The position numbers and the translations under genes were made by a program. From assembly GCF_000001735.4 (NCBI RefSeq), contig NC_003075.7:13455001-13519000 (forward strand): a DNA stretch of 64,000 nucleotides, given 5' to 3'. The notes beneath the pieces were generated by a model that made no database searches, was not told the DNA's origin, and saw nothing but the letters and a program-made list of their open reading frames with translations. Below, one piece after another: positions 34,914 through 46,680 of this stretch. Origin of the DNA: Arabidopsis thaliana (lineage: Eukaryota > Streptophyta > Magnoliopsida > Brassicales > Brassicaceae). Position 1 is the first letter of the stretch; each line of letters opens with the position of its first letter.

Positions 34914-36458
34914 ATGCGGTGGTCGATTGCGACTGCGATTGCTTCAACGGCTAAGGGGTTTCTTCATCTTCATCACCATTTTCTGAAGAACAGTAATCCT
35001 GGGATTGTTCTTTCTCCGTCGTTGAGATTTCGTTTCTGGGTACGAGCTTTTTCTGGTACTACTATTGATTATCGAGAGGTATTGAGAAGTGGGCTTCACA
35101 ATATTAAGTTCGACGATGCATTTCATTTGTTCGTACTCATGGCTTATTCTTACCCTCTACCTTCAATTGTTGAATTCAATAAAGTATTGACTGCTATTGC
35201 TAAGATGCAGATGTATGATGTTGTGATTAATCTCTGGAAACGTATTGAGAATGCTGAAGGTATTGAAATTTCACCTGATCTCTATACTTGTAACATTTTG
35301 GTGAATTGTTTCTGCCGCTGCTTTCAACCCTCTTCGGCTTTATCTTATCTTGGGAAGATGATGAAGCTTGGTATTGAGCCTGACATTGTGACTGCTAGCT
35401 CGCTGGTCAATGGATTCTGTCTCAGTAATAGTATTAAGGATGCTGTTTATGTGGCTGGCCAAATGGAGAAAATGGGAATCAAACGTGATGTTGTAGTCGA
35501 TACCATACTCATTGATACTCTTTGCAAAAATAGACTTGTGGTTCCCGCGCTGGAGGTTCTCAAACGTATGAAAGACAGAGGAATTTCACCGAATGTTGTT
35601 ACCTACAGCTCTCTCATAACTGGCCTTTGTAAATCCGGTAGATTGGCTGACGCCGAGAGACGACTGCACGAAATGGACTCCAAGAAAATCAACCCTAATG
35701 TTATCACTTTCAGTGCATTAATCGATGCATATGCAAAACGTGGGAAACTGTCGAAGGTTGATAGTGTGTACAAGATGATGATCCAAATGTCTATAGATCC
35801 TAATGTTTTCACTTACAGTTCACTTATCTACGGGCTTTGCATGCACAATCGTGTAGACGAGGCCATTAAAATGCTTGACTTGATGATAAGCAAGGGGTGC
35901 ACCCCAAATGTAGTCACTTACAGTACTCTTGCAAATGGATTTTTCAAGTCGTCGAGGGTAGATGATGGGATTAAACTTTTAGACGACATGCCTCAAAGAG
36001 GCGTGGCTGCAAACACAGTCTCTTGCAACACTCTTATCAAGGGCTATTTTCAAGCAGGCAAGATAGATCTCGCTCTAGGAGTTTTTGGATATATGACTTC
36101 TAATGGTCTGATTCCCAATATTAGGAGCTACAACATTGTGTTAGCTGGTCTATTTGCTAATGGGGAGGTAGAGAAAGCATTGAGCAGATTCGAGCATATG
36201 CAAAAGACTAGAAATGATCTTGATATTATTACATATACTATCATGATTCATGGGATGTGCAAGGCTTGTATGGTGAAAGAAGCATATGATTTGTTCTATA
36301 AACTCAAGTTCAAAAGAGTGGAGCCCGATTTTAAAGCATACACGATAATGATCGCAGAATTGAATAGGGCTGGCATGCGGACTGAAGCAGATGCCTTGAA
36401 TAGATTTTACCAAAAGCACGTTCGCCAAAACGAAAGCGCACCAGCTGAAGTATCCTAG
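34914..36458 (+). CDS. P-class pentatricopeptide repeat protein, intronless
   Basis: A single 514-aa frame from MRWSIATAIASTAKGF to PAEVS. The first 50 residues are rich in Arg, Ser, Leu and His with almost no acid, as in a mitochondrial targeting peptide. About ten consecutive 35-residue P-type repeats follow, with regular starts such as NVVTYSSLITGLCKS, NVFTYSSLIYGLCMH and NVVTYSTLANGFFKS. No E or DYW domain is present. Family knowledge: a sequence-specific organellar RNA binder, probably mitochondrial; target unknown. The gene lies between an intact GDSL lipase gene and a degenerate partial copy of it, so it entered, or was trapped in, a duplicated segment. I recall AT4G26800. Confidence 0.94.
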   Translation: MRWSIATAIASTAKGFLHLHHHFLKNSNPGIVLSPSLRFRFWVRAFSGTTIDYREVLRSGLHNIKFDDAFHLFVLMAYSYPLPSIVEFNKVLTAIAKMQMYDVVINLWKRIENAEGIEISPDLYTCNILVNCFCRCFQPSSALSYLGKMMKLGIEPDIVTASSLVNGFCLSNSIKDAVYVAGQMEKMGIKRDVVVDTILIDTLCKNRLVVPALEVLKRMKDRGISPNVVTYSSLITGLCKSGRLADAERRLHEMDSKKINPNVITFSALIDAYAKRGKLSKVDSVYKMMIQMSIDPNVFTYSSLIYGLCMHNRVDEAIKMLDLMISKGCTPNVVTYSTLANGFFKSSRVDDGIKLLDDMPQRGVAANTVSCNTLIKGYFQAGKIDLALGVFGYMTSNGLIPNIRSYNIVLAGLFANGEVEKALSRFEHMQKTRNDLDIITYTIMIHGMCKACMVKEAYDLFYKLKFKRVEPDFKAYTIMIAELNRAGMRTEADALNRFYQKHVRQNESAPAEVS

Positions 36459-42465: not shown

Positions 42466-43458
<993 letters not shown>

Positions 43459-44261: not shown

Positions 44262-46145
44262 TCACTGAAGGACAAGGCACTCGGCGGCCGTCCCATTTGT
44301 GATCGGACCTCCATGGGTTCTGTTGCTTTTCTGGTTAACATTGCCACTAGAGTTTTGCTGATGAACTATGGTTCCTTCAAGATCCTCCTCTTGGTTACTA
44401 CAACCTATGGCTTCAAAGGCGAGAGCAGTAACCTCCTTAAACCTTTCCTCCGACAGAGAAGCTTCCGCAAGGAGCCTCCACGCGTTATCCTCTGAAGCAC
44501 CTTCGTAATCCTCTTTCCTCTTCAGTACCATGTGACCACTTATCTCCCACACGGCTGGGTTCACTTGTGTTTCCAATACCTCCGGGCTCACTTCACCTAG
44601 AGCCTGTTTCTCTGCGTAACACTGCAATTTTTACATTCAAACTGTTATTCACTTTTGATTAAGTAATTCAAAACATGTATTCATCCAACGGTGTAGTTAT
44701 ATACCTGTGGCATTAAGAAGATCTGCCTTCCACAATCAGAGATGAGAATGTTGAAAGGAATGTTGTTGTTTTGAAGGCAAACACAGCAGTCTGAAACAGT
44801 ATCAGATAGTTCTTGCATAGAGCTTCCACCTTCAAAGAGAAGACTTCTCACAGGGTAACTTAGAAGCTCTGAGATTTTGACACCACTAACAGTGGTAGTT
44901 ATCTTCTTGGTAGGAGCTTTCTCCAGTGGGAAAGGCATGGCCAAGTAATAAGCCTGTTTCCAAAAACAATCACCACCAAAACAATCAGAACAAACATCTT
45001 AGATGAGCAAGGGTGAAAAGGTTATGCTTGGATCACTTTTGGATATACCTGAAAGTGGAGATGATTGATAGTGGCAAAAGCACCCAAGCTGTTGTAACCG
45101 AGTCTGAAGTATGGATTAGCAGCCTCAGCAGCCATGTGAACTGCAAGCAAAAGGCTTTTGTGATCGATCCTTTGAGGCAAGCAGTCAAGAACACGAGGAA
45201 TCAGCAGCACATGGCCATACTCTATCGGACTAACCTGTTAAAAACAACAATAAAGAATTAATCTTTTGCTAGCGAAACCAATAAAAGGAAGAAAGAAAAA
45301 ACCAAGCTCTCTGCACAAGAGTCTTTACATTGATGGCAACAACACTGGGAGAATTCTCAGGGTCAATAGGCATGCAAGGGAAGAACTGAACTTGGGCATC
45401 TTCACCAGCTTCAAACTGGAAGAGCAACTCTTCTTGGCCAACTTTAGTGAAGTTGAATTTGCTGCCATCAAAAGACTGCAACACCTTATCTACACGGAAC
45501 TCAGTTGGCCTCTTCTTCAAGTGACGACCCTCGTTAAGCTGAGCAACGAAACCATACTTCCCCGGGATAACCTATAACATCAAGAGAAACAATCTTAAGA
45601 ACAATGTAAAACATATCTCGGATTCCTCAGCAACAAACAACCCAACATAACTAGATTGTCAAACAAGGTAAGAAAGACAATTACTTTGGTTTCGCAGGCA
45701 GTGACATCATAGCGAAAAAGTCCTCTTTGGAACCTATCCTCCCACTAAACATAAGAATACTGATTAGACTCTTCCAAGCTACAGAAACCATTATCAGAAT
45801 ATCAAAATCAGTGGTCTATGATTTACCTCTCCGAGAACAAGGGACTCGAGAAAAGCTACAGGAGGCTCTATAGCCTCATGACTGATTACAAGCTTCTCTC
45901 CGGATTTTACCAGATTCTTACATGCATACAATGGAAGCCTAGCCCCTGAACAAACACATCATAAGGTGAATAAAAAAAAAGTGATAAAATTTAAACATGA
46001 TTAAAAAAGACGATTCAGGTTTCCAAAACGTACCGTTAAGGCAACAAGCGCCGAGGCAATTCCGTCCACAGCCGACGGGATCCTCCGCTCCATCGTCCTT
46101 CTGGTAGTTCGAAACAACGGTCGGAACTCTTTTGATTTTCAACAT
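44262..46145 (-). CDS. VTC2: GDP-L-galactose phosphorylase VTC2 (ascorbate pathway)
   Basis: Seven exons on the minus strand: 46145-46034, 45945-45827, 45744-45685, 45571-45329, 45234-45049, 44953-44705 and 44621-44262, for 442 aa. The protein starts MLKIKRVPTVVSNYQKDDGA and ends GTAAECLVLQ. The catalytic HIT-type motif is in AFATINHLHFQAYYL, whose second His is the nucleophile that takes the GMP. Reaction: GDP-L-galactose + phosphate gives L-galactose-1-phosphate + GDP, the first committed and rate-controlling step of the Smirnoff-Wheeler route to vitamin C, in cytosol and nucleus. The long leader contains a conserved non-AUG upstream ORF, known in this gene to make translation drop when ascorbate is high. 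VTC5 on chromosome 5 is the paralogue. Confidence 0.98.
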
Positions 46146-46256
46146 TCTCAAAAAAGACAAATTTCGAAGAGCAAAAGAAAAAACTTCCCCCAAGAAAAAA
46201 GCGATTCAAGAGCACCAAAAAAAGAAGAAGGAAAAAACACTAACAAACCCTAACTC

Positions 46257-46451
46257 CTAAAACCTAAAGGAAAAGAAGTTAAAGCTGGAACCGCCACCGG
46301 CGAGAAAGAGGAGATCGGAAGGGCTGCCGCCTTCAGACGGCAGAGCTCCACGTCCTCCGTGCGGCAAAGGATTAGTTTCGATTAAACAACCCTTCTGTCG
46401 GACAATATGGACATGTGAGCTAACACCCCGTGATATCCCGTGTATAGCCGT
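46257..46451 (-). promoter_or_regulatory. Conserved non-AUG upstream ORF of VTC2, ascorbate feedback
   Basis: On the minus strand, in the leader 112 nt before the VTC2 ATG, a frame starts at an ACG codon (46451-46449) and runs 64 codons to TAG (46259-46257). It begins TAIHGISRGVSSHVHIVRQK, continues with PLPHGGRGALPSEGGS and ends FNFFSFRF. The frame is open a little further upstream but has no AUG. Literature knowledge: plant GGP genes carry a deeply conserved peptide uORF with a non-AUG start. At high ascorbate the peptide stalls ribosomes and lowers VTC2 translation. The peptide and position match that description; the choice of ACG follows it. Confidence 0.85.
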
Positions 46452-46672
46452 GATTCCGATCACCTGTTCCCCGGATTTTTTCAAATCGAACGCCGGAAAA
46501 AAAGATTACAGCTAAAACGAACCCGACACTCAAAACAGCAGAAACGAAACGAATAAATGAGAGATCTTTTGATGTGGGTTTTTTTCACAAACAAAAATTT
46601 GAGAAGATGCCTGAATGAATAATTCTTTGAGGTGTTTTTTGATGATACAGTGTTTTAGGATATCGAATGGGC

Positions 46673-46680
46673 TTTAAATA
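46673..46680 (-). promoter_or_regulatory. TATA-like box of VTC2
   Basis: TATTTAAA on the minus strand, about 530 bp upstream of the VTC2 ATG. It would give a leader of about 500 nt that includes the upstream ORF, in line with the known long VTC2 leader. Confidence 0.45.

Follow-up and report, generated by a model that had tools for sequence, protein, structure and literature searches.

The ACG-started upstream frame of Arabidopsis VTC2 corresponds to the published GGP upstream open reading frame

The stretch of DNA analysed here, referred to as the window, comprises 64,000 nucleotides (nt) of Arabidopsis thaliana (NC_003075.7, positions 13,455,001 to 13,519,000). On its minus strand, at positions 46257 to 46451, an upstream open reading frame (uORF) of 64 codons starts at an ACG triplet and ends at a TAG stop (46259-46257). 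It precedes the coding sequence of a GDP-L-galactose phosphorylase (GGP), which we take to be the VTC2 gene. This frame is almost certainly the same element as the published GGP uORF, an identification made because the published descriptions match, and not on the strength of in-sequence statistics. For the whole account, in which the uORF lowers VTC2 translation when ascorbate is abundant and does so through its nascent peptide, we put the probability at about 80%. The VTC2 uORF is already known, and the window adds no new biology; a preliminary description of the locus had itself called the element known biology, in agreement with the parts of the literature covered here.

The upstream frame and its start codon

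Translation of the minus strand from 46451 to 46257 gives the ACG, 63 further sense codons and the stop, and hence a product of 64 residues. The preliminary description had announced a frame of this length devoid of AUG and had quoted two stretches of its peptide: both stretches are present, and inspection of the sequence found no ATG in frame. The distance to the VTC2 start needs a slight correction, from 112 nt to 111 nt, measured from the uORF stop to the main ATG (spacer 46146-46256). The uORF and the main open reading frame (ORF) do not overlap.

Upstream of the ACG, the frame stays open for 18 more codons, until a TAA at 46508-46506. Between this stop and the SRGVSSHVH stretch of the peptide, the near-cognate codons in frame are TTG (46484), GTG (46463), ATC (46460), ATC (46454), ACG (46451), ATA (46445) and ATA (46436). 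Among these, the ACG (46449-46451) is alone in combining A at -3 with G at +4; the ATC at 46460 has G at both positions. The ATC immediately 5' of the ACG (46452-46454) corresponds to the AUC given as another possible start in the covered part of a wheat paper (PMC6878703). The frame, its start context, its position and the gene it precedes are all directly visible in the window.

A TATA-like TATTTAAA is found at 46673-46680 (minus strand). It is the basis for placing the transcript start near 46645, and a 500-nt leader (46645-46146) was therefore assumed. This leader contains a single ATG, at 46414, where 8.2 were expected; only 12 of 5000 base shuffles had as few. Two ACG triplets (46451 and 46431) combine a purine at -3 with G at +4, compared to a mean of 0.39 in the shuffles. 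Nothing but base composition is preserved in these shuffles, and leaders are usually poor in ATG, so that the scarcity of ATG is compatible with a uORF without proving it.

Correspondence with the published element

The GGP/VTC2 uORF was reportedly described by Laing et al. in 2015 (Plant Cell 27:772), a report known to us through the papers that cite it. The other sources used here are represented by parts of their text, and what is said of them applies to those parts. For the same element, one review refers to Hsu et al. 2016 as well as to Laing et al. The window uORF was compared with the published one by description, the published alignment being a figure, and no difference was found. It is placed in front of a GGP coding sequence, within a 5' leader whose extent is inferred, and does not overlap the main ORF. 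Its predicted start, an ACG with an adjacent AUC, stands in good context, and the literature gives the start as AUC or ACG (PMC7084844, PMC6878703). Its 64 residues fall within the 60 to 65 in print (PMC7084844, PMC6878703, PMC10069634). Conservation of the peptide among plants has also been reported (PMC6878703, PMC12559526).

Repression by the uORF, its dependence on start codon and peptide, and weaker reporter translation at high ascorbate are all reported in print. Deletion or mutation of the conserved ACG-started uORF in the GGP leader raises reporter translation, changing its ACG to AUG greatly lowers it, and elevating ascorbate leads to repression of the reporter (PMC11066809). Editing of the uORF in Arabidopsis increased ascorbate 1.7-fold (PMC7084844). 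The rice GGP uORF is likewise ACG-started, and its mutation raised reporter output 1.48- and 1.83-fold (PMC12559526); a ribosome-profile peak lies over it (PMC11440899). In lettuce, conversion of the GGP2 uORF start codon to AAA raised the reporter by over 160% (PMC13084149). A further paper mentions the uORF only in its introduction, among the places covered (PMC10602610), and in a 2012 paper on conserved-peptide uORFs (PMC3426882) none of the six terms searched for occurs. For Arabidopsis ribosome footprints over the VTC2 uORF, no paper turned up in the literature search.

By its general design, the element resembles other conserved-peptide uORFs of plants that respond to metabolites, among them those of bZIP11, SAMDC and XIPOTL1, which respond to sucrose, polyamines and phosphocholine, respectively: in each case a leader uORF represses the main ORF when its product or signal is abundant (PMC11062462, PMC12371167). 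Unlike them, the GGP uORF starts at ACG; the likeness is one of description and not of peptide comparison.

Could the frame be due to chance?

Several observations weigh against reading a translated uORF from the sequence itself. Of 2000 dinucleotide shuffles of a 515-nt leader (46660-46146), 1203 contained 82 or more consecutive codons free of stops, and 1795 contained 64 or more. When only the local 301 nt were shuffled, a run of 82 codons was still reached in 409 of 2000. The length of the uORF alone is therefore within chance. Its codon use, scored after training on 2430 codons from seven other frames in the window, is -0.12 bits per codon, which is under every VTC2 coding window scored (-0.04 to 0.20). 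Moreover, no relatives are available for comparison among the viral contigs, prokaryote genomes, plasmids and phages searched. The peptide gave 51 pattern matches in viral contigs and 587 in prokaryote genomes, none of them confirmed, and no match in phages, NCBIfam or PDB sequences; a 381-nt stretch of the leader had no match in plasmids. Such a lack of relatives is what one would expect of an element from plants.

Codon use nevertheless ranked the uORF frame first among the three frames of the forward direction, the two others scoring -0.16 and -0.43, and its value was matched by 53 of 2000 dinucleotide shuffles. One reverse-strand frame scored higher (-0.06), and it is interrupted by three stops. 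Taken together, ACG context, ATG scarcity and codon use provide modest in-sequence support for the uORF. A chance frame, left open by the composition of the leader and resembling the published uORF by coincidence, would account for the run lengths obtained after shuffling, but the published element is matched in gene, start codon, context, length and position together, and we regard such a coincidence as hardly credible.

Other comparisons of the peptide were made. The Pfam family HTH_91 was returned with an E-value of 0.0099 and 16.1 bits, compared to a cut-off of 27 bits, and was rejected as a chance match. A literature search with the letters of the peptide found nothing. In the published GGP uORF alignment, column 45 holds Glu in non-grass species and Ala in grasses (PMC6878703); residues 25 and 40 of the window peptide are Glu, and they can be aligned to that column only via the numbering of the published figure. 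The preliminary description had also read the frame as a structured peptide, for which none of the analyses run gave support.

How the uORF may act

In the account that we favor, scanning ribosomes would reach the ACG at 46451 without passing an AUG, and a fraction of them would initiate there and translate the 64 codons. Ribosomes engaged on the uORF would be lost or stalled, and therefore fewer would reach the main AUG at 46145. High ascorbate would strengthen this repression, most likely through the nascent peptide, which would let ascorbate, or some proxy for it, influence elongation or termination. The preliminary description had presented the frame as an ascorbate-sensing switch working through a nascent peptide. 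Its identity (ACG, 64 codons, GGP leader, no overlap) and the repression reported in print stand, whereas sensing of ascorbate by the nascent peptide is a proposal in print and not a demonstration (PMC11066809). That the peptide stalls the ribosome, and what it senses, we infer only.

The same uORF might also act independently of its peptide, either by simple diversion of ribosomes or because structure in the GC-rich leader favors the ACG, with ascorbate acting on start-codon choice. The papers leave room for this: in the model as given by two reviews, the uORF is translated or skipped depending on ascorbate (PMC6878703, PMC7084844), and the mechanism is termed unresolved in PMC11066809, PMC7084844 and PMC10069634. 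Folding of the assumed 500-nt leader is also more stable than that of its shuffles (z = -2.48), only one in 100 being as stable. On the other hand, an altered uORF peptide is said to abolish the feedback (PMC11066804), and the reported conservation concerns the peptide. The uORF alone departs less from its shuffles (z = -1.57; 12 of 200 as stable), and its stability was equalled or exceeded in 176 of 1000 synonymous-codon permutations and in 200 of 1000 synonymous resamplings. Synonymous sequences being so often as stable, no RNA structure in excess of what the peptide imposes is apparent from this single sequence. We consider a peptide-independent action unlikely, yet the most serious of the alternatives.

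RNA structure as the primary signal was accordingly rejected, and a scan of the whole window against Rfam gave no match at the gathering score. The GC content is 0.57 to 0.62 in the middle of the uORF (46380-46301, minus strand) and 0.28 to 0.40 at both ends of the leader.

The single ATG of the leader opens a candidate mini-frame nested in the uORF in the +1 frame (46382-46414, minus strand), which encodes 10 residues (MSILSDRRVV). Ribosomes that have passed the ACG could initiate there, terminate 10 codons later and reinitiate at VTC2; the mini-frame would in this way contribute to setting the output. Being the sole ATG where 8.2 were expected by base shuffling, it does stand out; its context is weak, however (C at -3, T at +4), and the triplet is formed where the CAT (His) and GTC (Val) codons of the uORF peptide meet. 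It is thus most simply a by-product of these codons, and chance is enough to explain it. A role for the mini-frame appears improbable. No mention of it was met in the uORF literature, which is partly covered here, and its absence from print is not thereby established.

Three ACG triplets follow one another at a spacing of exactly 10 nt (46451, 46441 and 46431, minus strand), the first and third sharing the A(-3)/G(+4) context. With this spacing, each of the three frames receives one ACG, and the ATG at 46414 shares its frame with the second. One may imagine the uORF start as a device for choosing between starts, made of the three ACGs in three frames followed by the only AUG of the leader. The stringency of initiation, perhaps set by ascorbate, would then determine whether ribosomes make the 64-codon repressor or instead read one of the short frames, 3, 10 or 19 codons long, which allow restart at VTC2. 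We give this idea very little credence, even less than a role for the mini-frame alone, and retain the 64-codon uORF acting through its peptide as the preferred account.

The main gene and its neighbors

The VTC2/GGP main ORF (44262-46145, minus strand) encodes 442 amino acids in seven coding exons. Splicing of the window at 46145-46034, 45945-45827, 45744-45685, 45571-45329, 45234-45049, 44953-44705 and 44621-44262 yields one open frame with GT/AG intron borders. The protein carries KKRP at residue 116 and HLHFQ at residue 236; a HIT motif and a KKRP signal have been described for GGP proteins (PMC6878703). A Pfam search returned no family for it up to an E-value of 1, although the HIT motif is present. 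Among PDB sequences it had no close relative, the best match being weak (E = 0.62).

Tail to tail with VTC2 on chromosome 4, positions 43378 to 43458 (plus strand) hold the last exon of a neighboring gene, presumably the end of SUMO1. Elsewhere in the window, two long single-exon frames on the plus strand, at 87-1418 (443 amino acids) and 34914-36458 (514 amino acids), look like pentatricopeptide-repeat proteins by eye only.

Significance

A non-AUG uORF such as this one can be recognized by eye from the leader, but only with prior knowledge, because its length alone is within chance. The GGP uORF is a translational brake on vitamin C synthesis in plants, and in the sources covered it serves as a target for gene editing in Arabidopsis, lettuce, tomato and rice (PMC11066809, PMC12559526, PMC7084844).
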